Below are positions 26,834 to 52,859 of a stretch of DNA of 64,000 bases, in pieces. Each line of letters opens with the position of its first letter. Within the stretch, counting starts at the first letter, position 1. The stretch comes from Catellatospora citrea (GTDB lineage: Bacteria; Actinomycetota; Actinomycetes; Mycobacteriales; Micromonosporaceae), in NCBI RefSeq assembly GCF_003610235.1, contig NZ_RAPR01000001.1:5146001-5210000 (forward strand), given 5' to 3'. The notes under the pieces were generated by a model that saw nothing but the letters and a program-made list of their open reading frames with translations, was not told the DNA's origin and did not search any database. Made by a program: the position numbers and the translations under genes.

Positions 26834-26851
26834 CCTGAGCGATCGTTTAGG
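26834..26851. promoter_or_regulatory. EMC-pathway palindrome, site 1 (before hbd)
   Basis: CCTGAGCGATCGTTTAGG, 14 of 18 positions symmetric with a perfect CGATCG core, 74 nt upstream of the 3-hydroxybutyryl-CoA dehydrogenase start. Related sites stand before four other ethylmalonyl-CoA pathway units (29644, 44770, 52310, 52842). Probably the operator of a shared regulator. Confidence 0.6.
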
Positions 26852-26925
26852 CTCGACGCGTTCGGCCGTGCGTCCACCGGCCGCCGGACGACACCGGATC
26901 ATGTTCCCCAGTGGGAGGCAGTGCA

Positions 26926-27774
26926 ATGGCAGGGAAGCTCGCGGTCATCGGGGCGGGACTCATGGGCGCCGGCATCGCCCAGGTGGCGGCGCAGGCCGGT
27001 TGGCAGGTCACGCTGCGCGACCTCGACGACGCGGCCACCGGGCGCGGCCTGGACGGCATCCGCACCTCGCTGGGCCGGTTCGCCGCCAAGGGCACCATCA
27101 CCGAACAGGACGCCCAGGACGCGCTGGCACGTATCACCACCACCACGGACCTCGAGGCCGCGGCCGAGGCCGACATCGTGATCGAGGCGGTGTTCGAGAA
27201 GCTGGAGATCAAGCAGGAGGTCTTCCGGGCGCTGGACCGCATCTGCAAGCCGGACGCGGTGCTCGGCACCAACACCTCCGCCATCCCGATCACCCAGATC
27301 GCCGCCGCCACCTCCCGGCCCGAGATGGTGGTGGGCACCCACTTCTTCTCCCCGGTGCCGATGATGAAGCTGTGCGAGCTGGTCCGCGGCCACCGCACCA
27401 GCGACGAGACGCTGGCCACCGCGCGGGCGTTCGCCGAGGGCATCGGCAAGACCTGCATCGTGGTGAACCGCGACATCGCCGGCTTCGTCACCACCCGCCT
27501 GATCGCGGCGCTGGTCGTGGAGGCGGTCAAGCTGGTCGAGTCCGGGGTGTGCACGCCCGAGGACCTCGACACGGCCTGCAAGCTGGGCTTCGGCCACGCC
27601 ATGGGCCCGCTGGCCACCACCGACCTGACCGGCGTGGACATCCTGGCGCACGCGGCGCGCAACATCTACACCGACACCGCCGACCCGAAGTTCTTCCCGC
27701 CGGAGCTGCTCCAGCGCATGGTCACGGCCGGTGAGCTGGGCCGCAAGAGCGGCAAGGGCTTCTACACGTACTGA
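26926..27774 (+). CDS. 3-hydroxybutyryl-CoA dehydrogenase
   Basis: A 282-residue NAD(P)-dependent enzyme that interconverts acetoacetyl-CoA and 3-hydroxybutyryl-CoA. Rossmann motif GAGLMGAGIAQ, LGTNTSAIPITQIA, the catalytic His-Glu pair in GTHFFSPVPMMKLCE, and the C-terminal TAGELGRKSGKGFYTY are present. ATG at 26926 has GGGAGG 7 nt upstream. The upstream palindrome at 26834 groups it with the ethylmalonyl-CoA pathway genes. A second, tandem-fused homologue is at 44796. It is followed by a 34-bp palindromic terminator. Confidence 0.94.
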   Translation: MAGKLAVIGAGLMGAGIAQVAAQAGWQVTLRDLDDAATGRGLDGIRTSLGRFAAKGTITEQDAQDALARITTTTDLEAAAEADIVIEAVFEKLEIKQEVFRALDRICKPDAVLGTNTSAIPITQIAAATSRPEMVVGTHFFSPVPMMKLCELVRGHRTSDETLATARAFAEGIGKTCIVVNRDIAGFVTTRLIAALVVEAVKLVESGVCTPEDLDTACKLGFGHAMGPLATTDLTGVDILAHAARNIYTDTADPKFFPPELLQRMVTAGELGRKSGKGFYTY

Positions 27775-27782
27775 TCGGCGGC

Positions 27783-27816
27783 ACGCCGCGCGGTGCTCGC
27801 GAGCACCGCGCGGCGT
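27783..27816. terminator. Bidirectional terminator palindrome
   Basis: A perfect 34-bp palindrome without spacer (arms 27783-27799 and 27800-27816, ACGCCGCGCGGTGCTCG and its complement) between the convergent hbd and ABC permease genes. It does not belong to any of the dispersed families. Confidence 0.75.
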
Positions 27817-27822
27817 CGCGCG

Positions 27823-28683
27823 TCAGCCGTCTCGCTTGGTCGTCCAGCGGAAACCGACCAGGCACAGGATCAGGCCGCCGACACACCAGGCGGCGAGCAC
27901 CAGGGCGACCCGGCCCAGCTCGTACGAGCCGGCGACCTCCTGGCTGGCGAACGACTCGGGCAGGAACACGCTGCGCAGGCCCTGGCACATCCACTTGAGC
28001 GGGAACAGCGCGGCGAACTGCTGCATCCAGTGCGGCAGGTCGTTGTACTCGAAGAACACGCCCGAGGTGAACTGCAGGATCAACGCGATCGGGGTGACCA
28101 CGGCAGGCCCGGAGCGGCCGGTCTTGGCGACGCCGGAGAAGGCGATGCCGCACAGCGTGCAGGCGATCAGGCCGAGCACGCTGACCCAGCCGAAGGTGAA
28201 CCACTTCTGCCCGGTGTCGGGCAGCCGCAGGTCGTAGAGCGCCACCGCGACGCCCAGCAGGAGGACGACGGCGATGAACGCGAGCGCCGCCACGCACAGG
28301 ATCTTGCCGGCGAAGAAGACCCACTTCGGCATCGGCGTGCCGCGGTAGCGCTTGAGCACGCCCCGGTCCCGCTCGATGGGGATGGTGATGGCCAGGTTCT
28401 GGAAACCGGTCGCCATGATGCCCGAGGCGATCATGCCGGTGACGAAGTACTGCGACAGGGTCACCGCGGGGACTTCGCCCTCCGGCGTAATGATCACGCT
28501 GCCGAAGATCGACCCGAAGATCAGCATCAGCATCACGGGGAAGAGCAGCGTGAAGACCAGGGACTCCCGGGTACGCACGAACTGCTTGAACTCGATCCCG
28601 CCCTGCGCCAGGGCCAGGCTCAGCCCGCTCGTCTGCCGCACGGCGGGCCGCACCGCCTCCCGCTCCGTGGTCTGCGTGCTCAC
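27823..28683 (-). CDS. ABC-2 type exporter permease
   Basis: A 286-residue permease with six spans, for example LVFTLLFPVMLMLIFGSIFGSVII and ILCVAALAFIAVVLLLGVAVALY, and the ABC-2 signature ERDRGVLKRYRGTPM. The GTG start at 28683 overlaps the ATPase stop (GTGA). The cluster is divergent from the ethylmalonyl-CoA mutase gene. Substrate unknown. Confidence 0.88.
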   Translation of the reverse strand: MSTQTTEREAVRPAVRQTSGLSLALAQGGIEFKQFVRTRESLVFTLLFPVMLMLIFGSIFGSVIITPEGEVPAVTLSQYFVTGMIASGIMATGFQNLAITIPIERDRGVLKRYRGTPMPKWVFFAGKILCVAALAFIAVVLLLGVAVALYDLRLPDTGQKWFTFGWVSVLGLIACTLCGIAFSGVAKTGRSGPAVVTPIALILQFTSGVFFEYNDLPHWMQQFAALFPLKWMCQGLRSVFLPESFASQEVAGSYELGRVALVLAAWCVGGLILCLVGFRWTTKRDG

Positions 28684-29555
28684 GACGCCTCCTGCCCGTT
28701 CTCGCCGATCATCTTCAGGTAGACGTCCTCCAGCGTGGGCCGGGTGACGGTCAGCTCCGGCACCTCGCCGCCGAACGAGGCGGCCAGCCGCTGCACCACC
28801 TCGGTGGGCCGGTCGGTCTCCTCGCTGCGCGGCCCGCCCTCGTCGCGCCAGCTCACCGTGGCCGTGGCCAGGTGCCGCCCGCCCAGCTCGGCGGGGGTCG
28901 ACACGGCGATCATGGTGCCGCGGGCGATCACGCCGACCCGGTCCGCCAGCGCCTCGGCCTCGTCCAGGTAGTGCGTGGTCAGCAGGATGGTGGTGCCGGT
29001 GTGCGAGAGCTGGCGGATCAGGTCCCAGAACTCGCGCCGCGCGGCCGGGTCGAAGCCCGTCGTCGGCTCGTCGAGGAACAGCACCTCGGGCTGGTTGACG
29101 ATGCCCAGCGCCACGTCGAGGCGGCGCTTCTGGCCGCCGGACAGGGTGTGCGTGCGCGAGTTCGCCTTCTCGGTCAGCCCGACCCGCTCGATGACCTCGT
29201 CGGGGTCGGCCGGGTTCGGGTAGAAGCGGGCGAAGTGGCGTACCACCTCGTGCACCTTGAGCTCGTCGAACTCGCCGGTGCCCTGCAGCACGATGCCGAC
29301 CCGGCGACGCCAGTCGCGGTCGGCCTTGGCCGGGTCGATGCCGAGCACGGACACGGTGCCGGAGTCCCGGGCGCGGAAGCCCTCCAGGATCTCGACCGTC
29401 GTGGTCTTGCCCGCCCCGTTGGGGCCCAGCAGCGCGAACACCTCGCCCGGCGGGACGGCCAGGTCGACCCCCGCGACGGCCACGTTGTCCGCATAGGATT
29501 TCCGCAGCCCGGAAACGCTGATCGCCAGCTCTTCGTGAGTCACACCCGGCACCAT
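28680..29555 (-). CDS. ABC-2 exporter ATP-binding protein
   Basis: A 291-residue ATPase with canonical motifs: Walker A GPNGAGKTTT, Q-loop VLQGTGEFDELKV, signature LSGGQKRRLDVALG, Walker B VLFLDEPTTGFD and switch LTTHYLDEAEALADR. A ~60-residue C-terminal domain ends in TVTRPTLEDVYLKMIG. Pairs with the permease downstream. Its start is 114 bp from that of the divergent mutase gene, and the operator-like site at 29644 lies between them. Confidence 0.93.
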   Translation of the reverse strand: MVPGVTHEELAISVSGLRKSYADNVAVAGVDLAVPPGEVFALLGPNGAGKTTTVEILEGFRARDSGTVSVLGIDPAKADRDWRRRVGIVLQGTGEFDELKVHEVVRHFARFYPNPADPDEVIERVGLTEKANSRTHTLSGGQKRRLDVALGIVNQPEVLFLDEPTTGFDPAARREFWDLIRQLSHTGTTILLTTHYLDEAEALADRVGVIARGTMIAVSTPAELGGRHLATATVSWRDEGGPRSEETDRPTEVVQRLAASFGGEVPELTVTRPTLEDVYLKMIGENGQEAS

Positions 29556-29643
29556 ACGTCAGGGCCGCATAGAGACCCGCCGGTGCTCGGCCGGGCGCGA
29601 GCGACGCCACGAACCCCAGTGAGATTCTTCACCGGCACAAGTT

Positions 29644-29661
29644 ACTGAACGTTCACTTAGC
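29644..29661. promoter_or_regulatory. EMC-pathway palindrome, site 2 (before ecm)
   Basis: ACTGAACGTTCACTTAGC, aligning to CCTGAGCGATCGTTTAGG at 12 of 16 central positions, with its own symmetric core TGAACGTTCA. It ends 8 nt before the ATG of the ethylmalonyl-CoA mutase gene, so binding here would block initiation. Confidence 0.5.
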
Positions 29662-29669
29662 ATCGGCGT

Positions 29670-31661
29670 ATGGAGCCTCGTCTCGCCGATCGTGACCGTC
29701 CCTGGGTCATGCGCACCTACGCCGGCCACTCGAACGCGGCGGCCACCAACGCGCTCTTCCGGCGGAACCTGGCCAAGGGCCAGACCGGCCTGTCGGTGGC
29801 GTTCGACCTGCCCACGCAGACCGGCTACGACCCGGACCACGAGCTGGCCGCGGGCGAGGTGGGCCGGGTCGGCGTGCCGGTGGCGCACCTCGGCGACGCG
29901 CGGGCCCTGTTCGACGGGATCGACCTCGCCGCCGCGAACACCAGCATGACCATCAACGCCACCGCGATGTGGCTGCTCGCGCTGTACGTCACCGTCGCGC
30001 AGGAGCAGGGCGCGGACCCGGCGGCGCTGGCCGGGACCACCCAGAACGACATCATCAAGGAGTACCTGTCGCGCGGGACGTACATCTTCCCGCCCGGCCC
30101 GTCGCTGCGCCTGACCACCGACGTCGTCGCGTGGACGGTGGCCAACGCGCCCGCCTGGAACCCGGTCAACATCTGCTCGTACCACCTGCAGGAGGCCGGT
30201 GCGACGCCCGTGCAGGAGGTCGGCTTCGCGCTGGCCACCGCCGTCGCGGTGCTGGACCGGGTGCGCGACGGCGGCCAGGTGCCGCCCGAGCGCATGGGCG
30301 AGGTCGTGCAGCGCGTCTCGTTCTTCGTCAACTCCGGCGTGCGCTTCGTCGAGGAGATGGCGAAGATGCGCGCGTTCAACCGGCTCTGGGACGAGATCAC
30401 CCGCGACCGGTACGGCGTCACCGACGCCAAGCAGCGACGACTGCGCTACGGCGTACAGGTCAACTCGCTGGGGCTGACCGAGTCGCAGCCGGAGAACAAC
30501 GTCGCCCGGATCGTGCTGGAGATGCTGGGCGTCACCATGTCCCGCGACGCTCGCGCCCGTGCCGTGCAGCTGCCCGCCTGGAACGAGGCCCTCGGCCTGC
30601 CCCGCCCCTGGGACCAGCAGTGGTCCCTGCGCCTGCAGCAGGTCCTGGCGTACGAGTCCGACCTGCTGGAGTACCCCGACCTGTTCGCCGGGTCGCACGT
30701 GGTCGAGGCGCTGGTCGACGAGATCGCCGACGGCGCGCGCAAGCAGCTCGCCGAGGTGCTGGAACTCGGCGGCGCGGTCGCCGCGGTGGAGGGCGGGCAC
30801 CTCAAGAGCGCCCTGGTCGCCTCGCTGGCCCGCCGTCGCGGGCGGGTCGAGTCCGGGCAGGACGTGGTGGTCGGCGTCAACCGGTTCGTCGAGACCGAGG
30901 CGTCGCCGCTGACCGCGGCGGGCGCGCAGGCCATCGAGCAGGTCGACCCGGCCGCGGAGAAGGCCGCGATCGATGCCGTGCAGCGCTGGCGCGCCGAGCG
31001 CGACGGGTCGGCGGCCGCCGACGCGCTGGACCGGCTGCGCGCCGACGCCGCCGGATCGCGCAACCTGATGGCCGCCACCCTGGAGTGTGTGCGGGCCGGG
31101 GTGACCACGGGGGAGTGGGCCGGCGTGCTACGCGAGGTGTTCGGCGAGTACCGCGCGCCCACCGGGCTGAGCAGCGGTGTCTCGGGCAGCGCGGACGGGT
31201 CGCTGGCCCGGGTCCGCGAGCGGGTGCACGCCACGGCCCGCGAGCTGGCGCGCCCGGCGCTGCGGCTGCTGGTCGGCAAGCCCGGCCTGGACGGGCACTC
31301 CAACGGCGCGGAGCAGATCGCCGTACGGGCCCGCGACGCCGGATTCGAGGTCGTCTACCAGGGCATCCGCCTGACCCCGGCGCAGATCGTCGCCGCGGCG
31401 GTGCAGGAGGACGTGGACCTGGTCGGCCTGTCCGTGCTGTCCGGCTCGCACCTCAACGCGGTGCCCGCGGTGCTGGCCGGCCTGCGCGCGGCCGGCCTGC
31501 CCGACCTGCCGGTCGTCGTCGGCGGCATCATCCCCGAGGACGACGCCGAGGTGCTGCGTGAGGCCGGGGTGGCCCGCGTCTTCACCCCCAAGGACTTCGC
31601 CTTGACCGACATCATGGCCGAGCTGGTCACCGTCGTACGCGAACGCCACGGCCTGACCTGA
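29670..31661 (+). CDS. Adenosylcobalamin-dependent ethylmalonyl-CoA mutase (MeaA/Ecm type)
   Basis: A 663-residue single-chain mutase. The substrate half starts DRPWVMRTYAGHSNAAATNALFRR and KGQTGLSVAFDLPTQTGYD, which follows the MeaA/ethylmalonyl-CoA mutase pattern rather than methylmalonyl-CoA mutase. The C-terminal B12-binding domain has GKPGLDGHSNGAEQIAV (Asp541, His543 as cobalt ligand), SVLSGSHL and GGIIPEDD. It converts ethylmalonyl-CoA to methylsuccinyl-CoA in the ethylmalonyl-CoA pathway. Other pathway genes are at 26926, 44796, 50758, 52350 and 52895, with the chaperone gene meaB at 54236. An isobutyryl-CoA mutase function is less likely, since both domains are on one chain and the N-terminus is MeaA-like. 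Confidence 0.92.
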   Translation: MEPRLADRDRPWVMRTYAGHSNAAATNALFRRNLAKGQTGLSVAFDLPTQTGYDPDHELAAGEVGRVGVPVAHLGDARALFDGIDLAAANTSMTINATAMWLLALYVTVAQEQGADPAALAGTTQNDIIKEYLSRGTYIFPPGPSLRLTTDVVAWTVANAPAWNPVNICSYHLQEAGATPVQEVGFALATAVAVLDRVRDGGQVPPERMGEVVQRVSFFVNSGVRFVEEMAKMRAFNRLWDEITRDRYGVTDAKQRRLRYGVQVNSLGLTESQPENNVARIVLEMLGVTMSRDARARAVQLPAWNEALGLPRPWDQQWSLRLQQVLAYESDLLEYPDLFAGSHVVEALVDEIADGARKQLAEVLELGGAVAAVEGGHLKSALVASLARRRGRVESGQDVVVGVNRFVETEASPLTAAGAQAIEQVDPAAEKAAIDAVQRWRAERDGSAAADALDRLRADAAGSRNLMAATLECVRAGVTTGEWAGVLREVFGEYRAPTGLSSGVSGSADGSLARVRERVHATARELARPALRLLVGKPGLDGHSNGAEQIAVRARDAGFEVVYQGIRLTPAQIVAAAVQEDVDLVGLSVLSGSHLNAVPAVLAGLRAAGLPDLPVVVGGIIPEDDAEVLREAGVARVFTPKDFALTDIMAELVTVVRERHGLT

Positions 31662-31723
31662 CACCCACCCACCCGCCCGGCCCGCCTCACCTGGTTGGGA
31701 CACGCCGTCCGACGATCCGGATC

Positions 31724-31778
31724 GATCATGAAGTTGTGGACGTGACACGCCGTCGAGCCGTGCCACAAGTTCATGATC
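31724..31778. repeat. Palindrome family C, copy 3
   Basis: GATCATGAAGTTGTGG near 31724 and CCACAAGTTCATGATC ending at 31778 are exact inverse arms around CGTGACACGCCGTCGAGCCG, almost the same centre as copy 2 at 12173. It lies between convergent ecm and the coiled-coil membrane-protein gene. Confidence 0.85.
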
Positions 31779-31810
31779 AACGCGGCGGCGCGGCGGGCGC
31801 GGCCTGGGGG

Positions 31811-37967: not shown

Positions 37968-38555
37968 TTACGGAGTGAAGCCTCGGCCGACTTTTTCGAG
38001 GGCGGCGTCGACGACCTGGGTGAGGTCGAGGGTGCCGTTGGAGTCGACCCAGGCGAAGAGGGCGGGGAGCATGGCGCCGACGCAGGCGCCGGCCATGATC
38101 TGGACCTCCAGGTCGTCGTCGGGGCGGCCGATGCGGGGGGCGATGGCGGTGCTGATCAGCTTGATGTTGCCGATCAGGCCGTCGAGCAGGCGGGAGCGCA
38201 GCGCGGGGACCGAGTTCTGCAGGCGGCTGCGGAAGAGGATCTTGTCGCGGTCGGCGTCCGGCAGGTTGCTCATCGTGGTGCGTACGGCGTGCCGTAGCGC
38301 GTCGATCGGCCCCAGCTCGGCCGGGGCCGCGGCGACGGCACCGGCCAGCATCGGGTCGTACTCGTCGTCGAGGACGACGTCCTCCTTGGTGGCGAAGTAC
38401 CGGAAGAACGTGCTGGGGGAGATCTCGGCGGCGGCGGCGATCTGCTCGACCGTGGTGGCGTCGTAGCCCTGCTCGGTGAACAATCGCAGCGCGTGCTCCT
38501 GGATCAACCAGCGGGTCTTCTGCTTCTTGCGCTCACGCAACCCCGACGAGCTCAT
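37968..38555 (-). CDS. TetR family transcriptional regulator
   Basis: A 195-residue regulator with the TetR helix-turn-helix TVEQIAAAAEISPSTFFRYFATKEDVVL near the N-terminus and a C-terminal ligand-binding domain. The ATG at 38555 has GTGGAG about 8 nt upstream; a longer reading from 38573 is possible. The start lies inside the 3' end of the MFS gene on the same strand, so both are cotranscribed and the regulator probably controls its own operon through palindromes at 40072-40105. The inducer is unknown. Confidence 0.9.
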   Translation of the reverse strand: MSSSGLRERKKQKTRWLIQEHALRLFTEQGYDATTVEQIAAAAEISPSTFFRYFATKEDVVLDDEYDPMLAGAVAAAPAELGPIDALRHAVRTTMSNLPDADRDKILFRSRLQNSVPALRSRLLDGLIGNIKLISTAIAPRIGRPDDDLEVQIMAGACVGAMLPALFAWVDSNGTLDLTQVVDAALEKVGRGFTP

Positions 38556-42453: not shown

Positions 42454-43530
42454 TCACTCGTATTCGGTGCCGCCCTTGCGGGTGAGGTAGGCGGGGGAGA
42501 CGAGCTTGCCGATGGCGCGGCCGCCGGTCACGGGGCTGTAGCGCTCGGGCGCGGAGCGCACGACCAGGCCCTCGCGCAGGTTCGCGCCCGTGCCGGACAC
42601 CGTCTCGGTGCCGTCGGCCAGCGCGATCAGCTCCTGCTCGGCGTACGGGCCCCGGTAGAGCACCGGGACCAGGGGCACCCCGTGCCCGGCGGCGAGCGGC
42701 GCGTACTCGTCCAGCGTCAGCCAGCGCACGCCTTCCCCGGCGTCCACGCACACGTCGAACACCGCGTAGCCGGGACGCACCCCTGCGTTCGCGCCGTACG
42801 GCAGGTCCTGCACGCCCCGGCCGAACACCTCGCCGAACACGCCGACCCGGTCGGCGCCGAGCGCACCGGCGACCGCGGCGGCGAACGCGGGCACGTCGAA
42901 CGTGCGGATCGCGCGCCAGTAGAGGTTGTGGCCGGTCTCCTTGATGGCCAGGCGCTGCTTGCCGAAGCCCTTCGAGGAGGCGTACACCGCGCCGGTGGCC
43001 GCGACGAGAGTCATCAGCGTGGCCGAGCCGTGGATCTTCTCGGTGGCTATCACCGGCTCGCCGGCCGTGAACAGGTCCGGGTAGCGGCGGATGTTCTCCA
43101 CCTCCAGCCAGGGCAGCAGGTCGGCGGCGGGCTCCATGTCCCCGGCCAGGTGCACCGGCACCGGCGGGTGCCACTTGACCACGCCGAGCAGTTCCGCGAA
43201 GTCCGTGCCCGCCGCGGCCGCCTGGGTCAGGTCCACGTCGGACAGCGCCTTCGGCAGGCAGACGATGCCCTGGGACAGCTCGCCGCGCAGGCGTACCGCG
43301 GTGATGCGGTCCTTGTTCGCGCCCGCCAGCCGACCGGTGAGGCCGAGCTCGGCGATCAGCGGCTCCGGCAGCACGGAGCCTTCGGGCAGGTAGACGGCGT
43401 GGTCCCCGGTGCGGAAGGCGCCTTTGGCGACCACCGCGCGCAGCCGTCCCACCTCGGCGAGTTCGAGCGCGTCGGCATTGGGGTGCGGGTGGATCACCAG
43501 CCGTTCCGCGGTGACCTTGAGTGTCGACAT
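42454..43530 (-). CDS. RNA ligase of the DRB0094 (Deinococcus Rnl, Rnl5) family
   Basis: A 358-residue protein with an N-terminal OB-like domain (STLKVTAERLVIHPHPNADAL, KGAFRTGDHAVYLPEGSVLPE) and a C-terminal nucleotidyltransferase. Motif I is EKIHGSA with Lys165, the position of the nucleophile in the Deinococcus enzyme. Downstream are VFGEVFG (motif IIIa-like), GVRPGYAVFDV, LREGLVVRS (motif IV) and IGKLVSPAYL (motif V). Family members seal 3'-OH/5'-phosphate nicks in which the 3'-OH strand is RNA. Unlike the 3996-5084 ligase it has no end-healing partner next to it. ATG at 43530. Confidence 0.92.
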   Translation of the reverse strand: MSTLKVTAERLVIHPHPNADALELAEVGRLRAVVAKGAFRTGDHAVYLPEGSVLPEPLIAELGLTGRLAGANKDRITAVRLRGELSQGIVCLPKALSDVDLTQAAAAGTDFAELLGVVKWHPPVPVHLAGDMEPAADLLPWLEVENIRRYPDLFTAGEPVIATEKIHGSATLMTLVAATGAVYASSKGFGKQRLAIKETGHNLYWRAIRTFDVPAFAAAVAGALGADRVGVFGEVFGRGVQDLPYGANAGVRPGYAVFDVCVDAGEGVRWLTLDEYAPLAAGHGVPLVPVLYRGPYAEQELIALADGTETVSGTGANLREGLVVRSAPERYSPVTGGRAIGKLVSPAYLTRKGGTEYE

Positions 43531-43662
43531 GCCGAGCATCGTCCCGGCCCCACATCCGCCCAGCAACCGACTTAAGCGTCGGGGCGGATTGTGTGGGCGG
43601 ACACCACTGGCGCGAGGCGTCCGGTGTGGCAGCATCCCGCGCACGGCGTGGGAGGAGCGGAG

Positions 43663-44562
43663 ATGGCTCAGCAGGTGGCGTACCGGATGGAGAGCGTGCC
43701 CGTACGCGGTGGCGAGCTGCGGGTGGGCGTGTGGGGCGACGACGGTCCGGTGCTCGTCGCGGTGCACGGCATCACGTCGTCGCACCTGGCCTGGACACTG
43801 ATCGGGCCCGAGCTGGGCCGCGACCACCGGGTGGTGGCGGTCGACCTGCGCGGCCGCGGCGGCAGCCGCGACCTGCCCGGCCCGTACGGCATGGCCGAGC
43901 ACGCCGCCGACATCGCCGCGGTCGTCCGGGCGTACGCCGACGCCCCCGTCCCCCTGATCGGCCACTCGATGGGCGGCTTCGTGGTCGCGGAGACCGCGCG
44001 CCGCTTCCCGGAGCTGGTCGAGCGCCTGATCCTGGTCGACGGCGGGGCCCCGCTGCCGCTGCCGCCCGGCATCGACGCGTCGGCCGGCCCGGCCGCGCTG
44101 GAGGAGGCGATCGCCACGACGGTGGGCGCCGTCTTCGCCCGGCTGAACATGACCTTCCCCGACCGGGACGCCTACCTGGCGCTGTGGCGGCAACATCCGT
44201 CCTTCGACCCGTGGCCCGAGGGCGCCGACGCGTATCTCGACTACGACCTGGTGGGCGAGGAGCCGCGGATGCGCGCCGCGTGTCGCATGGAGGCCGCGGT
44301 CCGCGACGGGCAGGACCTCTACGCGCTGCCGGGCATGACGCCCGCGCCGCTGCCGCGTCCCGCGGTGTTCCTGCGCGCCCCGCGCGGCATGTTCGACGAT
44401 CCGGACGCCCCGCTCTACACCCCGGGCCGAGCGAGCGAGTGGCTGCCGGGCGCGGCTGAGTCCGACGTGCCGGATGTGAACCACTACACGATCACGCTGG
44501 GCCGCGATGGCGCCGCGGCCGTGGCCGCCGCCGTCCGGGCGGGCACCCGCTGGCCACGCTGA
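43663..44562 (+). CDS. Alpha/beta hydrolase
   Basis: A 299-residue hydrolase. Oxyanion-hole segment VAVHGITSSHLAW, DLRGRGGS, nucleophile elbow LIGHSMGGFV (Ser), an acid residue in the C-terminal third and catalytic His in DVNHYTI complete the fold. A cap region (roughly 130-215) is helical. ATG at 43663 has GGAGG 7 nt upstream. Divergent from the DRB0094-type ligase gene. Substrate unknown; an esterase or haloalkane-dehalogenase-like activity cannot be distinguished. Confidence 0.88.
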   Translation: MAQQVAYRMESVPVRGGELRVGVWGDDGPVLVAVHGITSSHLAWTLIGPELGRDHRVVAVDLRGRGGSRDLPGPYGMAEHAADIAAVVRAYADAPVPLIGHSMGGFVVAETARRFPELVERLILVDGGAPLPLPPGIDASAGPAALEEAIATTVGAVFARLNMTFPDRDAYLALWRQHPSFDPWPEGADAYLDYDLVGEEPRMRAACRMEAAVRDGQDLYALPGMTPAPLPRPAVFLRAPRGMFDDPDAPLYTPGRASEWLPGAAESDVPDVNHYTITLGRDGAAAVAAAVRAGTRWPR

Positions 44563-44611
44563 CCTGCGCGACGACGGCATCCATCCGCCTGCTCGCCCAC
44601 GGGGCCGTTAA

Positions 44612-44769: not shown

Positions 44770-44787
44770 CCTTAGCGATCGTTTGGG
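44770..44787. promoter_or_regulatory. EMC-pathway palindrome, site 3 (before the fused dehydrogenase)
   Basis: CCTTAGCGATCGTTTGGG differs from site 1 (26834) at two of 18 positions and keeps the CGATCG core. It ends 8 nt before the chosen ATG, the same distance as site 2 from ecm. Confidence 0.6.
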
Positions 44788-44795: not shown

Positions 44796-46589
44796 ATGGG
44801 CACTGTGGCTCGCGAAATCAACACGGTCGGCGTGGTCGGCCTCGGCACCATGGGCGCCGGCATCGTCGAGGTATTCGCGCGCAACGGCCTGAACGTCGTG
44901 GCCGTCGAGATCAGCGAGGGCGCACTGGAGCGGGGCCGGGCCAACCTCTCCGGCTCGACCGACCGGGCCGTGACCAAGGGCAAGCTGTCCGCCGAGGACC
45001 GCGACGCGCTGCACGCCCGGGTCGACTTCCAGGTCGGGCTCGCCGCGCTGCACAGCGTCGACTTCGTGATCGAAGCCGTGCCCGAGCACCTGGACCTCAA
45101 GCAGGCGATCTTCGCCGAGCTGGACAAGGTCTGCCCGCCGCACGCCATCCTGGCCACCAACACCAGCTCGCTGTCCGTCACCGAGATCTCCGTGGCCACG
45201 CACCGGCCCAACCAGGTCATAGGCGTGCACTTCTTCAACCCCGCGCCGGTCATGAAGCTGGTCGAGATCATCCGTACCGTGGTGACCGCGCCGGAGGTCG
45301 TCGCCGACGTGGAGGCGCTGTGCGCCCGCCTCGGCAAGACCGACGTGACCATCAGCGACCGGGCCGGGTTCATCGCCAACGCGCTGCTGTTCGGCTACCT
45401 GAACCACGCCGTGACGATGTTCGAGAACCACTACGCCACCCGCGAGGACATCGACGCGGCCATGAAGCTGGGCTGCGGCCTGCCCATGGGCCCGCTGGCG
45501 CTGATGGACCTGATCGGCCTGGACACGGCGTACGAGATCCTGGACACCATGTACCGCCGCGGCGGTCGCGACCGCCGCCACGCCCCGGCGCCGCTGCTCA
45601 AGCAGATGGTCACCGCGGGCCTGCTGGGCCGCAAGACCGGCCGCGGCTTCTACACGTACACCAAGCAGGGCTCGCCGGTCGTCGTCGCCGACGAGCTGAC
45701 CCCGGCCGCCGGAGCGCACGAGGCCAGCCCGCGCCCGATCGGCGCCGTCGGCGTGGTCGGCTCGGGCACCATGGCCACCGGCATCATCGAGGTCTTCGCC
45801 AAGGCCGGCTACGAGGTGCTGAGCGTGACCCGGGGCGCGGAGAAGTCCGCCAAGGTCTGCGAGACGGTCAAGACCTCGCTGAACAAGGGCGTGGTGCGCG
45901 GCAAGCTCACCGAGGCCGAGCGCGACGCCGCCATCGGCCGGATCACCTGGTCCACCAACCTGGACCACCTGGCCGACGTGGACATGGTCGTCGAGGCCGT
46001 GGTGGAGGAGCTGAGCGTCAAGAAGGCGCTGTTCGCCAGCCTCGACGAGATCTGCAAGCCCGGCACCGTGCTGGCCACCACCACGTCGAGCCTGCCGGTC
46101 GTCGAGTGCGCCATGGCGACCCACCGCCCCGCGGACGTGGTCGGCCTGCACTTCTTCAACCCCGCGCAGGTGATGCCGCTGATCGAGGTGGTCGCCACCA
46201 TCCGCACCAGCGCCGCCACCCTGGCCACCGCCGACGCCGTCGTCTCCAGCCTCGGCAAGACCGCCGTCGACTGCGCCGACCGGGCCGGCTTCATCGTCAA
46301 CGCGCTGCTGTTCCCGTACCTCAACGACGCGGTGAAGATGCTGGAGGCCAGCTACGCCACCGCCGACGACATCGACGCCGCCATGAAGCTCGGCTGCGGT
46401 TACCCGATGGGCCCCTTCGAGCTGCTCGACGTGGTCGGCCTCGACGTCTCCCTCGCCATCCAGCGCGAGCTCTACCTCGAACTCCGCGAGCCCGGCTTCT
46501 CCCCGGCCCCCCTCCTGGAGCACCTGGTCACCGCCGGCTACCTGGGCCGCAAGACCGGCCGCGGCTTCCGCGACCACACCCACCGCTGA
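44796..46589 (+). CDS. Tandem-duplicated 3-hydroxyacyl-CoA dehydrogenase
   Basis: A 597-residue protein made of two complete 3-hydroxybutyryl-CoA dehydrogenase units. Unit 1 (about 7-290) has VVGLGTMGAGI, ATNTSSLSVTEI, the His-Glu pair in VHFFNPAPVMKLVE and GLLGRKTGRGFYTY. Unit 2 (about 315-597) has VVGSGTMATGI, ATTTSSLPVVE, LHFFNPAQVMPLIE and GYLGRKTGRGF. Both keep the catalytic residues, so two active sites per chain are expected. Such fusions occur in other actinobacteria. Start: ATG 44796 with GGGAG 6 nt upstream; GTG 44805 is an alternative. The palindrome at 44770 links it to the ethylmalonyl-CoA pathway genes. Confidence 0.92.
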   Translation: MGTVAREINTVGVVGLGTMGAGIVEVFARNGLNVVAVEISEGALERGRANLSGSTDRAVTKGKLSAEDRDALHARVDFQVGLAALHSVDFVIEAVPEHLDLKQAIFAELDKVCPPHAILATNTSSLSVTEISVATHRPNQVIGVHFFNPAPVMKLVEIIRTVVTAPEVVADVEALCARLGKTDVTISDRAGFIANALLFGYLNHAVTMFENHYATREDIDAAMKLGCGLPMGPLALMDLIGLDTAYEILDTMYRRGGRDRRHAPAPLLKQMVTAGLLGRKTGRGFYTYTKQGSPVVVADELTPAAGAHEASPRPIGAVGVVGSGTMATGIIEVFAKAGYEVLSVTRGAEKSAKVCETVKTSLNKGVVRGKLTEAERDAAIGRITWSTNLDHLADVDMVVEAVVEELSVKKALFASLDEICKPGTVLATTTSSLPVVECAMATHRPADVVGLHFFNPAQVMPLIEVVATIRTSAATLATADAVVSSLGKTAVDCADRAGFIVNALLFPYLNDAVKMLEASYATADDIDAAMKLGCGYPMGPFELLDVVGLDVSLAIQRELYLELREPGFSPAPLLEHLVTAGYLGRKTGRGFRDHTHR

Positions 46590-46605
46590 CCTCCACTCCG
46601 GTAGC

Positions 46606-47038: not shown

Positions 47039-47104
47039 CCTGCCTGGTGTGATCACCGCGACGTCAGGGGGCAGGGCGGACCGCCGCGCGGGCAGACTGT
47101 AGGC

Positions 47105-47884: not shown

Positions 47885-47908
47885 CCGCGGCACCGCCGCC
47901 GGGTATGG

Positions 47909-47946
47909 AAAAGCCGCTGGGCGTCCCAGGACGCACAGCGGCTTTT
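47909..47946. terminator. Bidirectional terminator
   Basis: AAAAGCCGCTGGGCGTCC (47909-47926) pairs with GGACGCACAGCGGCTTTT (47929-47946) with one mismatch. The flanking A- and T-tracts make it a classical intrinsic terminator in both directions, between convergent genes. Confidence 0.9.
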
Positions 47947-47954
47947 CGTGACTG

Positions 47955-49226
47955 TTACCGGCTGGAGGCCTCGGCGTCGGTGCTGCGCCCGTCCAGGCTG
48001 ATGGTGGGCTCGTTGCCGGCCAGCATGATCGTGGGCTCGTCCCCGGCCTGCGGCTCGACCGGCTTGTCGGTCTGCGGCTTGTCGACCGGGGCGGGCGCTG
48101 CCTGAGCCGCGGGCGGAGCGGGCACGGACAGGGTCTGCGTCGGCGGCTCCTCGTCGGGACGCGACGCCTCGGCGCGGCGGCGCTCGGCCTGCTCGGCGTC
48201 GCGCTGCGCCTTGGCCAGCCGCTCCAGCTCGACGTGCAGCTGCTGCTTCAGCTCGGTCAGCCGGTGCTCCACCTGCGTGATGTCGGCCCGCATCGCCACC
48301 AGTTGGGCCTGGCCGTCCTCGTACTGCTGCTTGGCGGTGTCGGCGGCGGCCTGCTCGGCGGCGGCCCGGCCGCGGGCGAGCGCCACCTCCTGCTCGGCCT
48401 GGTCCGTGCGCTGGGTCGCCTGGGCCTCCACCTCGGACAGTTTGGCCGCGGCCGCGGCGGTCGCCGCGGCGAGCTGCTGCTCGGCCTGGGCGGCGGCGGC
48501 GGCCAGGCGCTGTTCGGCCTCGGTGGCGGCGGCCGCCAGCTGCTGCTCGGCCTGGGCGCGGGTGTCCGCCGTGTGGCGCTCGGACTCGGCGCGCGCGGCG
48601 GCGATCTCCTTGTCGGCCTGGATGCGCCGGGAGGCGGCCTCCTGGGCCGCGGCGGTGCGCAGGCCCTGCGCCTCGACCTGGGAGTGCGCGAGCAGCTCGC
48701 GCGCCTCGGTGCGCAGGCGCTGCGTCTCGTCCATCAGTTCGGCGCGGTGGCGCTCCTCGGCCTTGCGCTCCTCGGCGCGGCGGGAGGCCAGCGCCAGGTC
48801 GAAGTCGCGGGACGCGGTGGCGGCCCGCTCGCGGGCATCGGTGAGCAGGCGCTCGGCCTCGGCGCGCTGGTCGGCGATCTCCTGGGCGGCGCCGTTGCGC
48901 AGGTCGTCGGCCTGGTCCTCGGCGAGCGAGAGGATCTGCTCGACCCGCGCGCCCAGGTGCCGGAAGGAGACCCGGGACGGCACGGCGCGGCGGGCGGCGT
49001 CGGCGAGCTCCAGCTGAAGCTGCTGCACCTGACCGGCGAGCGCCTGCAGCTGCGAGATGGCCTGGTCACGTTCGGCGGCCAGAGTCGCCAGTTCGGACTC
49101 GACCTGGACGACGTATCGGTTCACCTGCTTCTTGTCGAAGCCCTTGAGGGATGTATCGAAGCTTGGTTCCGATGAGACGCCCTCACCGAGCGCGAACAGG
49201 TCTCCGCCGTGCGACATGCGGTCCAT
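47955..49226 (-). CDS. DivIVA-like long coiled-coil protein (paralogue 1)
   Basis: A ~423-residue protein. Near the N-terminus FDTSLKGFDKKQVNRYVVQVESEL resembles the DivIVA-family entry segment (F-x-x-x-L-x-G-[FY]-x-x-x-x-V). Residues ~55-355 are an unbroken Ala/Glu/Arg/Gln-rich coiled coil with near-repeats such as AEQQLAAAATEAEQRLAAA. The C-terminal ~60 residues are Pro/Ala-rich and disordered, with the repeated motif EPTIMLAG / EPTISLDG. Such proteins organise polar growth or division in actinobacteria. Start ATG 49226, with 49217 as an alternative. Downstream paralogue of the 49296-50528 gene. Confidence 0.8.
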   Translation of the reverse strand: MDRMSHGGDLFALGEGVSSEPSFDTSLKGFDKKQVNRYVVQVESELATLAAERDQAISQLQALAGQVQQLQLELADAARRAVPSRVSFRHLGARVEQILSLAEDQADDLRNGAAQEIADQRAEAERLLTDARERAATASRDFDLALASRRAEERKAEERHRAELMDETQRLRTEARELLAHSQVEAQGLRTAAAQEAASRRIQADKEIAAARAESERHTADTRAQAEQQLAAAATEAEQRLAAAAAQAEQQLAAATAAAAAKLSEVEAQATQRTDQAEQEVALARGRAAAEQAAADTAKQQYEDGQAQLVAMRADITQVEHRLTELKQQLHVELERLAKAQRDAEQAERRRAEASRPDEEPPTQTLSVPAPPAAQAAPAPVDKPQTDKPVEPQAGDEPTIMLAGNEPTISLDGRSTDAEASSR

Positions 49227-49242
49227 CTTCACATAAAGAGTC

Positions 49243-49278
49243 ACGCCGCGCCCGACAGGTGCCGGGCGCGGCGTGATC
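49243..49278 (-). terminator. Terminator between the DivIVA-like genes
   Basis: A perfect 14-bp stem TCACGCCGCGCCCG / CGGGCGCGGCGTGA (49243-49256, 49265-49278) with an 8-nt loop, just after the stop of the 49296-50528 gene on the minus strand. It would limit read-through into the second paralogue. Confidence 0.8.
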
Positions 49279-49295
49279 AGATGTGGATCGGGTCG

Positions 49296-50528
49296 TTATT
49301 CGGCCTTCTCGGCCTTCGGCTTCTCCTCGGCCGCCGGGGCGGGCGCGGGGTTGCCGACGCCGGGCACGATGCCGGCCAGGCCGGACAGCATCTGGCCGAG
49401 CTGCGCGGTGACCGCGTTCTTCTGGCGGGTGAGGTCGTCGACCTCGCGACGGGCGGCCGTGGTGGTCAGCTCCGCCTCGTTGCGGGCCTCGGACACCAGG
49501 CGGTGCGCCTCGGCCTTGGCCTCGTTGACGGCCTTCTCCGCGGCGACGCGGGCCTTCTCGGTCGTCTCGACGGCGGTGCGCTCGGACTCGACCCGGCGCG
49601 CCTCGGCGCGCTGCTCGATCTCCTTGGCCCGGTCCTCGGCGGCGCGGGCGCGCTCCTCGGCCTCGCCGACCAGCTTCTGCGTGGCGGCGACGGCGGAGGA
49701 GTGGCGCTGCGACTCCTCGCGCTCGGACTTCTCGCGGCGCTCGGCCAGCTCGAGCTGGAGGGCCTGCAGGTCCTTGTCGCGCTTGTCCCGGGCGTCGGCC
49801 AGCATCTTGGAGGCCTCGGCGCGCTTCTCCTCCGCCTCGCGGGCGGCCTTGGCGCGCAGCTGGGTGATCTCCCGCTCGGCGGTGGCGCGCAGCGTCGCGA
49901 CCTCGCGCTCGACGGTGGCCTTGAGCTCGGCCACCTCGTGCGAGGTGGCGGTGCGCAGCTGCTTGGTCTCGCGGTCGGCGTCGGCGCGCAGCGTGTCGGC
50001 CTCGCGGCGGGCCTGCACCCGGACCTCGGCGGCCTCGCGCTCGGCGGCGGTGCGCAGGTTGCCGGCCTCGCGCTCGGCGGTCGCCTTCATGGCGGCGGCC
50101 TCGGCACGCGCCTTGTCGGTGATCTCGCGGGCCTCGAGGCGGGCCGCGGACAGGATGCCCTCGGACTCGCGCTTGGACTCGCCGCGGTGGTCGTTGGCCT
50201 GCTCCTCGGCGAGGCGCAGGATCTGCTCCACGCGGGTGCCGAGGCCGGACAGGGTGGGGCGGCTGTTCTCTTCCAGCTGCTTGCTCGTGTCGGTCAGCTT
50301 CTGCTCGACCGAGTTGAGGCGCTGCTCAGCCTGGCGCAGACGACGCTGGGCGTCGTTCATGCGCTGCTCGGCCTCCGCACGTGCCTGCTCCGACTGGGCA
50401 AGCTGAGCGTTCAGACGACCGACAAACGCGTTTACCTGCTCGCGGTCGAAACCGCGCAGGACGACTGTGAAGTCTTGTTGGGTATTCGCGCCATCGAAGA
50501 ACGCGACGGAGGAGGGCTGCTGGGACAT
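49296..50528 (-). CDS. DivIVA-like long coiled-coil protein (paralogue 2)
   Basis: A 410-residue protein with DivIVA-like entry segment FTVVLRGFDREQVNAFVGRLNAQL at about residues 20-43, then a continuous coiled coil to about 380 rich in AEREAxxLR heptads (EREVATLRATAEREITQLRAKAAREAEEKRAE), and a short acidic/Pro-Ala tail. Both paralogues share SGLGTRVEQILRLAEEQAND / RHLGARVEQILSLAEDQADD after the first ~90 residues, so they arose by duplication. ATG at 50528 (MSQQPSSVAFF); no clear ribosome binding site. Probably a cytoskeletal or scaffold protein; the exact role is unknown. Confidence 0.82.
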   Translation of the reverse strand: MSQQPSSVAFFDGANTQQDFTVVLRGFDREQVNAFVGRLNAQLAQSEQARAEAEQRMNDAQRRLRQAEQRLNSVEQKLTDTSKQLEENSRPTLSGLGTRVEQILRLAEEQANDHRGESKRESEGILSAARLEAREITDKARAEAAAMKATAEREAGNLRTAAEREAAEVRVQARREADTLRADADRETKQLRTATSHEVAELKATVEREVATLRATAEREITQLRAKAAREAEEKRAEASKMLADARDKRDKDLQALQLELAERREKSEREESQRHSSAVAATQKLVGEAEERARAAEDRAKEIEQRAEARRVESERTAVETTEKARVAAEKAVNEAKAEAHRLVSEARNEAELTTTAARREVDDLTRQKNAVTAQLGQMLSGLAGIVPGVGNPAPAPAAEEKPKAEKAE

Positions 50529-50678
50529 TGGCACATACTCGCAGATGACCCCGGGTGTCGCGCAAGGGCGTGGGGGTACTTTCGCCCACCGGATATGGGT
50601 CGATGGCACGAACGTGCCGGTGACCATAACGGATGGAAGATCCATACCGGAAGCTAATTGCCAGTATTGCCCGAAATG

Positions 50679-50718
50679 CCGGATGGCGGAAGCGCGCCGT
50701 TGCGCTTCCGCCATCCGG
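50679..50718 (-). terminator. Terminator of crotonyl-CoA carboxylase/reductase gene
   Basis: A perfect 17-bp stem CCGGATGGCGGAAGCGC / GCGCTTCCGCCATCCGG (50679-50695, 50702-50718) with a 6-nt loop, about 40 nt after the ccr stop on the minus strand. Confidence 0.85.
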
Positions 50719-50757
50719 GTCCTTCAGCAGCCAGCCTCACCTGCGGTGAGCCGGAGG

Positions 50758-52113
50758 TCACACCCCGCGGAAGCGGTTGATCGCGGGCAGGTGGCGGGCC
50801 CGCTTGGCCTGATCGCGTACGCCCAGACCCTCCGCGGGAGCCAGGCACAGCACGCCGACCTTGCCCTGGTGCGTGTTGCGGTGCACCTCGTAGGCGGCCT
50901 GGCCGGTCTGCTCCAGAGGGAACACCTTGGACAGCGTCGGGTGCACCCGGCCCAGGTCGACCAGGCGGTTGGCCTCCCACGCCTCGCGGTAGTTGGCGAA
51001 GTGGCTGCCCACGATCCGCTTGAGCGACATCCACAGGTAGCGGTTGTCGTACTGGTGCTCGTAGCCGCTGGTCGAGGCGCAGGTGACGATGGTGCCGCCC
51101 TTCTTGGCGACGTACACGCTGGCGCCGAAGGTCTCCCGGCCCGGGTGCTCGAACACGATGTCCGGATCCTCGCCGCCGGTCAGCTCCCGGATGCGCGCGC
51201 CGAAGCGCTTCCACTCCGCCGGATCCTGGGTGTGCTCATCGGACCAGAACCGGTAGCCCTCGGCGGCGCGGTCGATGACCAGGTCGGCACCCATGCGGCG
51301 GCAGATCTCCGCCTTCTCCGGAGAGGACACCACGCACACCGGGATCGCGCCGCCGTGGAGCGCCATCTGCGTGGCGTACGAGCCGAGGCCGCCGCTGGCG
51401 CCCCAGATCAGCACGACATCGCCCTGCTTCATGTTCGCGCCGTGGTGCGACACCAGCTGCCGGTACGCGGTGGAGTTGACCAACCCCGGGCTGGCCGCCT
51501 CCTCCCAGGTCAGGTGGGCGGGCTTGGGCATGAGCTGGTTGGACTTGACGATGGCCAGCTGGGCCAGCCCGCCGAAGTTGGTCTCGAAGCCCCAGATGCG
51601 CTGCTGCGGGTCGAGCATGGTGTCGTCGTGGCCGGCCGCGTCCTCCAGCTCGACGTTGAGGCAGTGCGCCACGACCTGGTCGCCGGCCTGCCACTTCGTC
51701 ACCCCCGGGCCGGTGCGCAGCACCACGCCCGCCGCGTCCGAACCCACCACGTGGTACGGCAGGTCGTGGCGCTTGGTCAACGCCGACAACCGTCCGTACC
51801 GCTTCAGGAAGCCGAACGTCGACAGCGGCTCGAAAATGGACGTCCACACCGTGTTGTAGTTGACCGCGCTGGCCATCACCGCGATCAGCGCCTCACCCGG
51901 CCCCAGCTCGGGGGTGGGCACTTCCTGCAGGTGGAGTGCCTTGCGCGGGTCCTTGTCGCGAGTGGCCAGTCCGTCGAACATGGCGGTCTCGTCCTCGCGT
52001 ACCACCATCCCCTGGTAGGAGGCGGGCACCGGCACGTCGGCCAGGCTGCGCAGCCGCGCGGCGGGGTCGGCCGCGTTCTCGGCTTCCATGATCACGTCGA
52101 GGATGTCTTGCAC
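50758..52113 (-). CDS. ccr: Crotonyl-CoA carboxylase/reductase
   Basis: A 451-residue medium-chain dehydrogenase/reductase that reductively carboxylates crotonyl-CoA to (2S)-ethylmalonyl-CoA with NADPH and CO2. Family hallmarks: AVMASAVNYNTVWTSIFEPLSTF, LPYHVVGSDAAGVV, RIWGFETNFGGLAQ (Phe-Glu of the CO2 pocket), GASGGLGSYATQMALHGG (NADPH site), IVFEHPGRETFGASV (active-site His) and GSHFANYREAWEANRLV. GTG start at 52113 with GGAGG 7 nt upstream; a reading from 52230 adds a basic tail not seen in the family. Two operator-like sites lie in the 236-bp upstream region. Key enzyme of the ethylmalonyl-CoA pathway; also a supplier of ethylmalonyl-CoA for polyketides. Confidence 0.95.
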   Translation of the reverse strand: MQDILDVIMEAENAADPAARLRSLADVPVPASYQGMVVREDETAMFDGLATRDKDPRKALHLQEVPTPELGPGEALIAVMASAVNYNTVWTSIFEPLSTFGFLKRYGRLSALTKRHDLPYHVVGSDAAGVVLRTGPGVTKWQAGDQVVAHCLNVELEDAAGHDDTMLDPQQRIWGFETNFGGLAQLAIVKSNQLMPKPAHLTWEEAASPGLVNSTAYRQLVSHHGANMKQGDVVLIWGASGGLGSYATQMALHGGAIPVCVVSSPEKAEICRRMGADLVIDRAAEGYRFWSDEHTQDPAEWKRFGARIRELTGGEDPDIVFEHPGRETFGASVYVAKKGGTIVTCASTSGYEHQYDNRYLWMSLKRIVGSHFANYREAWEANRLVDLGRVHPTLSKVFPLEQTGQAAYEVHRNTHQGKVGVLCLAPAEGLGVRDQAKRARHLPAINRFRGV

Positions 52114-52258
52114 GGCGCCACCTCCGTGGTGAGGGAACTGCGGCGTCCCGCGCTCGCGCTGCGGGCGGAGTTCCGGGTCTGCGGGCCATCCTTGGCGGGC
52201 CCTCCTGCGGGTCGCCATGTGGTCGGGCACACATGTGCGGTTCAGGTGAGCCGGACGT

Positions 52259-52270
52259 TACTGGTCGGTA
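52259..52270. promoter_or_regulatory. Possible TetR-type operator TACTGGTCGGTA
   Basis: A near-symmetric site between the ccr start (52113) and the stronger palindrome at 52310. Same core as 5162 and 41685. Confidence 0.3.
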
Positions 52271-52309
52271 GCTTTCGCGGGAACGGGTGTGTGAAAAAGT
52301 CCACGCTTT

Positions 52310-52327
52310 ACTTAACGATCATTCAGT
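52310..52327. promoter_or_regulatory. EMC-pathway palindrome, site 4 (before ccr)
   Basis: ACTTAACGATCATTCAGT, symmetric at 14 of 18 positions with a GATC centre. Its complement ACTGAATGATCGTTAAGT aligns with CCTGAGCGATCGTTTAGG of site 1. It lies 197 nt upstream of the ccr start codon, between ccr and the 3' end of the epimerase gene. Confidence 0.55.
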
Positions 52328-52349
52328 CGGGGTGGCCCGCAGGGGCGGT

Positions 52350-52829
52350 TCAGTGGTCGTGGCCGGGCTCCACCAGCTCCACGAGCACGCCGCCGGCGTC
52401 CTTCGGGTGCACGAAGTTGATCCGCGAGCCCGCGGTGCCGCGCTTGGGGGTCTCGTAGAGCAGGCGTACGCCGCGCTCGCGCAGCGCCGCGCACGTCGCG
52501 TCGATGTCGGCGACCGTGTAGGCCATCTGCTGGATGCCGGGGCCGCTGCGGTCCAGGAACCTGCCGATGGGCGAGTCCGGGCGCAGGGGCGCGAGCAGCT
52601 GCACGGCGCCGCCGTCGGGGTTCGGCCCGACCTGGAGCATCGCCTCGCGTACGCCCTGCTCGTCGTTGGTCTCCGTGTGCACGCAGGTCATCCCGAACGT
52701 ACCTTCGTAGAAGGCGATGGCGGCGTCGAGATCCGGCACCGCGATGCCCACGTGATCGATTTGCAGCAGACCCACGAGCTGTGACGGAGTGCTCTGTGAT
52801 GAGGTCGACAGGGATCCGGGTTCGGTCAT
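52350..52829 (-). CDS. Methylmalonyl/ethylmalonyl-CoA epimerase
   Basis: A 159-residue VOC-fold epimerase with LLQIDHVGIAVPDLDAAIAFY, NDEQGVREAMLQVG, LAPLRPDSPIGRFLDRSGPGIQQMAYTVADID and INFVHPKDAGGVLVELVEP, which include the metal His and Glu residues. Length and motifs match methylmalonyl-CoA epimerase; members also act on ethylmalonyl-CoA and would pass the ccr product on to the mutase. Divergent from the acetyl-CoA acetyltransferase gene, with palindrome site 5 in between. ATG at 52829. Confidence 0.94.
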   Translation of the reverse strand: MTEPGSLSTSSQSTPSQLVGLLQIDHVGIAVPDLDAAIAFYEGTFGMTCVHTETNDEQGVREAMLQVGPNPDGGAVQLLAPLRPDSPIGRFLDRSGPGIQQMAYTVADIDATCAALRERGVRLLYETPKRGTAGSRINFVHPKDAGGVLVELVEPGHDH

Positions 52830-52841
52830 GCGGTTAGTCTG

Positions 52842-52859
52842 ACCGAACCATCGTTAAGG
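52842..52859. promoter_or_regulatory. EMC-pathway palindrome, site 5 (epimerase/thiolase divergent region)
   Basis: ACCGAACCATCGTTAAGG matches CCTGAGCGATCGTTTAGG at 12-13 of 18 positions. It lies 12 nt before the epimerase ATG and 35 nt before the acetyltransferase ATG, so one protein could control both. Confidence 0.5.

Follow-up and report, generated by a model that had tools for sequence, protein, structure and literature searches.

Five related palindromic sites lie before genes of acyl-coenzyme A (acyl-CoA) metabolism in a 64-kb stretch of the Catellatospora citrea genome (the window; C1:5146001-5210000 of 9.3 Mb). We consider it likely that they are operators of a single, autoregulated TetR-family repressor encoded at C1:4150015-4150608, a diverged homologue of AccR and BkaR. 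The computational observations behind this prediction are the sites themselves, their conservation, a self-site before the tetR gene, and the co-occurrence of motif and protein among related genomes. An earlier note on this DNA had read the sites as marking a scattered regulon of the ethylmalonyl-CoA pathway. One regulon, probably served by one repressor, is also what we find, because sites recur before orthologues and enrichment of the motif is largely a feature of genomes with the candidate TetR. The confinement to the ethylmalonyl-CoA pathway did not survive the analysis: the regulon is real but broader.

A 16-bp core shared by five sites

All five palindromes are present where the earlier note had placed them, and all are intergenic (Table 1). 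The 18-mer quoted there describes them incompletely, since two of the five match it at three mismatches or fewer and the other three do not, whereas a 16-bp core with 12 fixed positions, CTnAACGnnCGTTnAG, fits every site with one or two mismatches. Across the 64 kb scanned, these sites are the only matches to the core at up to two mismatches. Their palindromy is imperfect, with 4 to 7 of 9 pairs complementary per site in the 18-mer register. Site 1 differs from site 3 at two positions, and sites 2 and 3 each end 8 nt upstream of an ATG (29670 and 44796), both as had been described. Elements resembling a -10 box, identified by eye, occur at or beside several sites (TAGGCT for hbd, TAGCAT for meaA), a placement on or next to such elements that fits repression.

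The motif is overrepresented in the genome and avoids genes

Genome-wide, the core is matched with at most one mismatch 20 times, compared with 3 times for a reversed-pattern control. True operators had been expected to favor intergenic DNA over gene interiors, and this is the distribution observed: 19 of the 20 sites are outside called genes, one of these overlapping the final four bases of a gene, and the non-coding share of the window is ~10%. Fifteen of the 20 precede acyl-CoA, central-carbon, or tetR genes, namely tetR, hbd, ccr, and genes for two biotin carboxylases (one with a carrier domain), two carboxyltransferases, three acyl-CoA dehydrogenases, a methylmalonyl-CoA mutase, pyruvate phosphate dikinase, the fructose bisphosphatase GlpX, pyruvate kinase, and a thioesterase-like protein identified only by eye. 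The remaining five comprise sites before an NADPH-F420 reductase, an FAD oxidoreductase, and a small gene without assigned function, one site of unclear placement (6741651), and one inside a gene (4094655). The F420 reductase gene begins 15 nt after its one-mismatch site (C1:5305247, L336), an arrangement also found in the related genome G002.

Two-mismatch sites are known among the 100 matches listed, with 20 chosen stretches inspected for genes. Among these matches, weaker sites stand before a 3-hydroxy-3-methylglutaryl-CoA (HMG-CoA) lyase, two thiolases, a B12-binding small subunit, a succinyl-CoA ligase (by eye), and a malyl-CoA/beta-methylmalyl-CoA lyase homologue. A second methylmalonyl-CoA-mutase-type gene has a two-mismatch site across its start codon, at C1:4762128 (L341), and its orthologue in G002 has a one-mismatch site at the same place.

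A TetR gene preceded by a perfect site

Among the 20 best sites, only the one at 4150650 stands directly before a TetR gene. This site matches all 12 core positions and lies 41 nt before the gene; apart from two middle bases, it is perfect in the C. citrea genome and in all ten congeners. Genes for an acyl-CoA carboxylase, an HMG-CoA lyase, and an acyl-CoA dehydrogenase adjoin the candidate tetR. The best solved-structure match of its product is 4g12, which we take to be Rv2506, i.e., BkaR, and the next-best match to the protein in its own genome is only 29% identical.

The motif follows this protein from genome to genome. In the 24 of 41 genomes that have a TetR homologue 60% or more identical, the core is matched 14.1 times on average (control, 3.1), compared with 2.1 times (control, 2.4) in the other 17. 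When the window's genus is left out, the TetR-holding genomes still average 8.9 matches against 2.8. In a scan of named genomes with the TetR alignment, the close homologues (74-86% identity) sit in Micromonosporaceae such as Micromonospora, Dactylosporangium, and Actinoplanes.

Conservation of the sites before orthologous genes

The regions upstream of tetR, ccr, meaA, the fused dehydrogenase gene, hbd, and the thiolase gene were compared over 40 relatives. A site was counted as conserved if at least 10 of the 12 core positions matched within 300 bp upstream, and one meaA region without upstream DNA (L125) was excluded. Conservation before orthologues, which the earlier note had anticipated, is complete in the ten congeners (60/60 regions), frequent in other genera of the family (26/55), and nearly confined to the family (1/56 in other families). 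For 300 shuffled palindromes of the same composition, the corresponding averages are 0.6, 0.4, and 0.5, with maxima of 17, 6, and 12. Outside the family, a single site is conserved, that of the thiolase gene in G028, a genome whose TetR is 62% identical. In the congener alignments, which are limited by an identity threshold and for tetR include 9 of the genus's 11 members, the six genes together show no variation at 71 of the 72 fixed core positions, compared with 30-76% invariance in the flanks.

In the other genera of the family, conservation varies by gene: tetR 4/12, ccr 0/6, meaA 1/6, fused dehydrogenase 6/8, hbd 7/12, and thiolase 8/11. Judging by these differences outside the genus, membership in the regulon looks old for hbd, the fused dehydrogenase, and the thiolase and recent for ccr and meaA. 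The strong ccr site is confined to the window's genus, with weaker traces (9/12) in G018, G019, and one Dactylosporangium. When both operator types (see below) were sought in the 22 ccr loci of 17 genomes, out of 26 genomes searched, mostly Streptomyces, no operator common to ccr here and in Streptomyces was found.

Targets in relatives were followed, among the matches listed, in five of the 41 genomes (G002, G017, G019, G022, and G028). In G002, 14 of 21 one-mismatch sites precede orthologues of C. citrea targets, including ccr and hbd, and the remainder fall before the second mutase gene (1), inside a gene (1), and before other genes (5). Genes resembling, by eye, electron-transfer flavoprotein beta follow core matches at L375 (G017) and L382 (G019), and branched-chain aminotransferase-like genes, likewise named by eye, at L378 (G017), L371 (G022), and L399 (G028). 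These placements suggest that the breakdown of branched-chain amino acids is the older core of the regulon.

A residue of the putative recognition helix tracks the operator type

Self-operators of two types were found among 110 homologues of the candidate TetR. A C-type self-operator (at least 11/12) is present in 25, all of which read Tyr-His in the putative recognition helix; a G-type (exactly GTTA-N8-TAAC) is present in 54, all reading Tyr-Arg; and 31 carry neither. Helix residue and operator type therefore agree in all 79 self-operators. Four of the Tyr-Arg homologues carry Thr where others have Ser; as every G-type case, these four included, reads Arg and every C-type case His, it is the Arg/His difference rather than Thr/Ser that tracks the operator type. 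By analogy with TetR structures, this residue (His55 in the candidate) would contact DNA. The homologues of His helix type number 52, of which 25 have the C-type self-site. Of these 25, 11 belong to the window's genus, and since the cases share ancestry, the joint change of residue and operator may represent a single event.

Scope of the regulon

A regulon of the ethylmalonyl-CoA pathway alone is rejected by sites before acyl-CoA carboxylase, HMG-CoA lyase, and other acyl-CoA dehydrogenase genes, and further by sites before genes for methylmalonyl-CoA mutase, pyruvate phosphate dikinase (ppdK), glpX, and pyk. The genes for pyruvate phosphate dikinase, for class II fructose bisphosphatase, and for pyruvate kinase have their one-mismatch sites at C1:2641560, 4811340, and 2162888 (L331, L335, and L028), and the orthologues of these three genes in G002 are also preceded by sites. 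The list of target genes is not pure, as matches in the relatives whose targets were followed also precede unrelated-looking genes.

Three further pathway genes had been predicted to carry sites, with different outcomes. The malyl-CoA/beta-methylmalyl-CoA lyase homologue does have one, a two-mismatch site 8 nt upstream; it recurs with one mismatch in G008 and G009 and with three in G019. For methylsuccinyl-CoA dehydrogenase, the candidate is an acyl-CoA dehydrogenase gene near the lyase, which a one-mismatch site precedes; the nearest solved structure to its product is FadE3, and from the neighborhood alone we would guess that it is methylsuccinyl-CoA dehydrogenase. This dehydrogenase site recurs with one or two mismatches in G002, G007, G008, G009, and G019. 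The lyase site is likewise present in G002 and G007, the lyase gene itself lying beyond the stretch examined there. The prediction failed for mesaconyl-CoA hydratase, whose candidate gene (PF19315), ~4 kb away, has only a three-mismatch match here; among six relatives examined, a two-mismatch match precedes the gene in G018 only.

Comparison with known regulators

AccR of Streptomyces avermitilis, as described in two papers, is a TetR repressor of acyl-CoA genes, among them accD1A1-hmgL-fadE4 (PMC10933834, PMC8176718), that recognizes a 16-nt palindrome, GTTAA-N6-TTAAC (PMC10933834); the primary study is Lyu et al. 2020, cited here through these papers. Streptomyces homologues of the candidate TetR are 46-54% identical to it, carry the AccR-type sequence GTTAATGAGCGTTAAC or variants in the same register, and, one short contig excepted, adjoin acc, hmgL, and fadE-type genes. 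In contrast to AccR, the outer operator bases are C..G here rather than G..C, and the helix carries His rather than Arg. The carboxylase neighbors, 48-54% and 38-41% alike, lie on the other side of the gene, and order and orientation differ from Streptomyces. The quoted AccR targets do not include ccr.

The mycobacterial regulator BkaR (Rv2506/MSMEG_4718) is described as an autoregulatory TetR repressor that binds a 16-bp palindrome as a dimer and controls the accD1-accA1-fadE19 genes and the thiolase gene fadA4, about 10-12 genes in all; its binding to GTTAATCATCGTTAAC before fadA4 is documented by gel shift and derepression (PMC3920632). BkaR agrees with the candidate in the 16-bp register, in acyl-CoA targets that include a thiolase gene, and through the structural match to 4g12. 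Its core, GTTA(N)T(N4)A(N)TAAC, differs from CTnA..TnAG here, and the BkaR targets considered here include no ethylmalonyl-CoA genes (PMC3920632). By sequence comparison, the candidate TetR is a homologue of AccR and BkaR; we call it AccR/BkaR-like because it scores below the family cut-off and its operators lack the outer bases GTTA..TAAC.

Two further systems bear on the ethylmalonyl-CoA pathway. CcrR of Methylorubrum extorquens, a proteobacterial protein, is likewise a TetR-family regulator of an ethylmalonyl-CoA pathway gene, although an activator by its title, and is set beside the candidate by description only (PMC4207312, PMC10370305). RamB of Paracoccus denitrificans ties acetyl-CoA assimilation genes to intermediates of the ethylmalonyl-CoA pathway, but its targets are glyoxylate-cycle genes, and it passes from tetramer to dimer with beta-methylmalyl-CoA (PMC10370305). 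No paper on the present regulon was found in the literature searched, which covers subscription journals thinly.

Evidence against the assignment and alternative explanations

Several observations weigh against assigning the sites to one AccR/BkaR-like TetR. On the NCBIfam SACE_7040 equivalog the candidate scores 224.2 bits, under the cut-off of 250. At two mismatches the genome-wide excess over the reversed control is weak (131 vs 87), so that the three two-mismatch window sites (meaA, fused dehydrogenase, and thiolase) rest on conservation rather than on the genome count. Of 284 equally long windows in the congener alignments, 9 to 35 match the sites in invariance, and the footprint is thus not unique within the genus alone. 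Two fragmented genomes of the same family (G012 and G015), in which a close TetR was not found, nevertheless have 5 and 7 matches vs 2 and 2. In G028, a different, unrelated-looking TetR gene (L395) has a one-mismatch match 57 nt upstream, and in all five genomes whose targets were followed, part of the one-mismatch sites stand before unrelated-looking genes. Finally, 27 of the 52 His-type homologues, including Micromonospora, lack a self-site in the scanned region. Several loci without it have sites before accC or accD, and self-control may have been lost or replaced in Micromonospora-type loci. Loci of Micromonospora and kin with sites near accC or accD starts and no tetR self-site are L229, L233, L235, L239, L240, L243, and L247.

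That the palindromes arose by chance, as the modest two-mismatch excess might suggest, is exceedingly improbable, and we reject it given the 20 vs 3 matches at one mismatch, the placement of 19 of 20 sites outside called genes where the window is ~10% non-coding, and a conservation that exceeds that of shuffled palindromes. It is also improbable, though less so, that a different regulator binds the sites and tetR is merely one of its targets. Such a regulator would account for the distance of the candidate from the five window sites, and other possible regulator genes do occur near sites, a PadR-like gene (by eye) beside C1:4780020 and a second TetR_N match 1.9 kb from site 4811340. Yet apart from 4150650 none of the 20 best sites stands directly before a TetR gene, and the number of motif matches in a genome goes with the presence of the candidate. 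Moreover, the 16-mers bound by its relatives share this register and lie before similar genes, with a helix residue that tracks the operator.

A third possibility accepts the TetR as binder and holds that the regulon serves branched-chain amino acid and propionate metabolism, its ethylmalonyl-CoA and gluconeogenic targets mattering little in life. The targets conserved outside the genus (carboxylase, lyase, hbd, thiolase, and mutase) and the scarcity of ccr and meaA sites there speak for it, whereas the retention of the ccr and meaA sites in all ten congeners and the near-complete invariance of core positions relative to their flanks speak against it. We regard this possibility as unlikely, although it is the one to be taken most seriously.

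A proposed mechanism

We infer that the candidate TetR binds the sites, represses, and responds to a ligand. In the proposed mechanism, a TetR dimer on the 16-bp palindrome, at the promoter or close to it, would block transcription until a CoA-linked signal, derived from acetyl-CoA-yielding substrates or from branched-chain amino acids, releases it. Acyl-CoA carboxylases and dehydrogenases would then come on together with ethylmalonyl-CoA and propionyl/methylmalonyl-CoA steps, joined in the window's genus by some gluconeogenic steps. Jointly, these targets could carry carbon from leucine, propionate, and crotonyl-CoA to succinyl-CoA and, in this genus, onward to phosphoenolpyruvate and hexose phosphate.

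Tentatively, and with confidence that falls a little short of even, we further propose that a branched-chain acyl-CoA repressor of this lineage changed its helix (Arg to His) and its operators (outer G..C to C..G) together and, in the window's genus, took over central carbon, comprising the ethylmalonyl-CoA pathway, pyruvate phosphate dikinase, fructose bisphosphatase, and pyruvate kinase. If so, one TetR protein would act as a master switch towards acetyl-CoA assimilation, and the system could present a case of a transcription factor and its operators shifting specificity together, by one residue and one base pair. The assignment itself names a candidate regulator for ccr, and hence for how ethylmalonyl- and methylmalonyl-CoA units are provided, in a family of actinomycetes noted for its natural products.

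Genes and sites in the window

By family-model matches, the gene names beside the five sites agree with those given before, with caution as to the mutase at 29670, which scores as methylmalonyl-CoA-mutase-type on models that do not separate ethylmalonyl-CoA mutase. Gene boundaries outside the feature list were set by a simple gene caller with eight window genes as its training set, and distances based on them are approximate.

Table 1. Sites, adjoining genes, and candidate regulator (window coordinates unless prefixed C1; sites listed with their 16-bp cores)
Feature	Coordinates	Strand	Remarks
Candidate tetR	C1:4150015-4150608	-	197 aa, TetR_N + TetR_C_24; ~1 Mb from window
Site 1, before hbd	26835..26850	+	CTGAGCGATCGTTTAG, 1 mismatch; kept in 10/10 congeners, 7/12 other family genera
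hbd, 3-hydroxybutyryl-CoA dehydrogenase-type	26926..27774	+	Strong model matches, under curated cut-offs
Site 2, before CoA mutase	29645..29660	+	CTGAACGTTCACTTAG, 2 mismatches; 10/10 congeners, 1/6 other family genera
Methylmalonyl-type CoA mutase, putative ethylmalonyl-CoA mutase meaA	29670..31661	+	Substrate inferred
Site 3, before fused dehydrogenase	44771..44786	+	CTTAGCGATCGTTTGG, 2 mismatches; 10/10 congeners, 6/8 other family genera
Tandem 3-hydroxyacyl-CoA dehydrogenase	44796..46589	+	Same model matched in two stretches, over cut-off
ccr, crotonyl-CoA carboxylase/reductase	50758..52113	-	TIGR01751 over cut-off; start by gene caller; frame open to 52230
Site 4, ~200 nt before ccr	52311..52326	-	CTTAACGATCATTCAG (+ reading), 1 mismatch; 10/10 congeners, 0/6 other family genera (10/12 limit)
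Methylmalonyl-CoA epimerase	52350..52829	-	TIGR03081 over cut-off
Site 5, between epimerase and thiolase	52843..52858		CCGAACCATCGTTAAG, 2 mismatches; 10/10 congeners, 8/11 other family genera, 1/8 other families
Acetyl-CoA C-acetyltransferase (thiolase)	52895..54076	+	TIGR01930 over cut-off

As the earlier note had remarked, no regulator gene adjoins any of the five sites, a statement that covers the 150 of 317 candidates that were scored for TetR_N. The only TetR_N match listed inside the window is the gene 37968-38555, whose C-terminal domain is of MftR type and which is not beside any site. A MeaB GTPase gene is next after the thiolase gene. No Rfam family reaches its gathering score in the window. 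An open frame on the minus strand (42454-44580) matches the RNA ligase family DRB0094, and the gene of an FtsX-like membrane protein has a core match with three mismatches 40 nt upstream, at 55535-55550.

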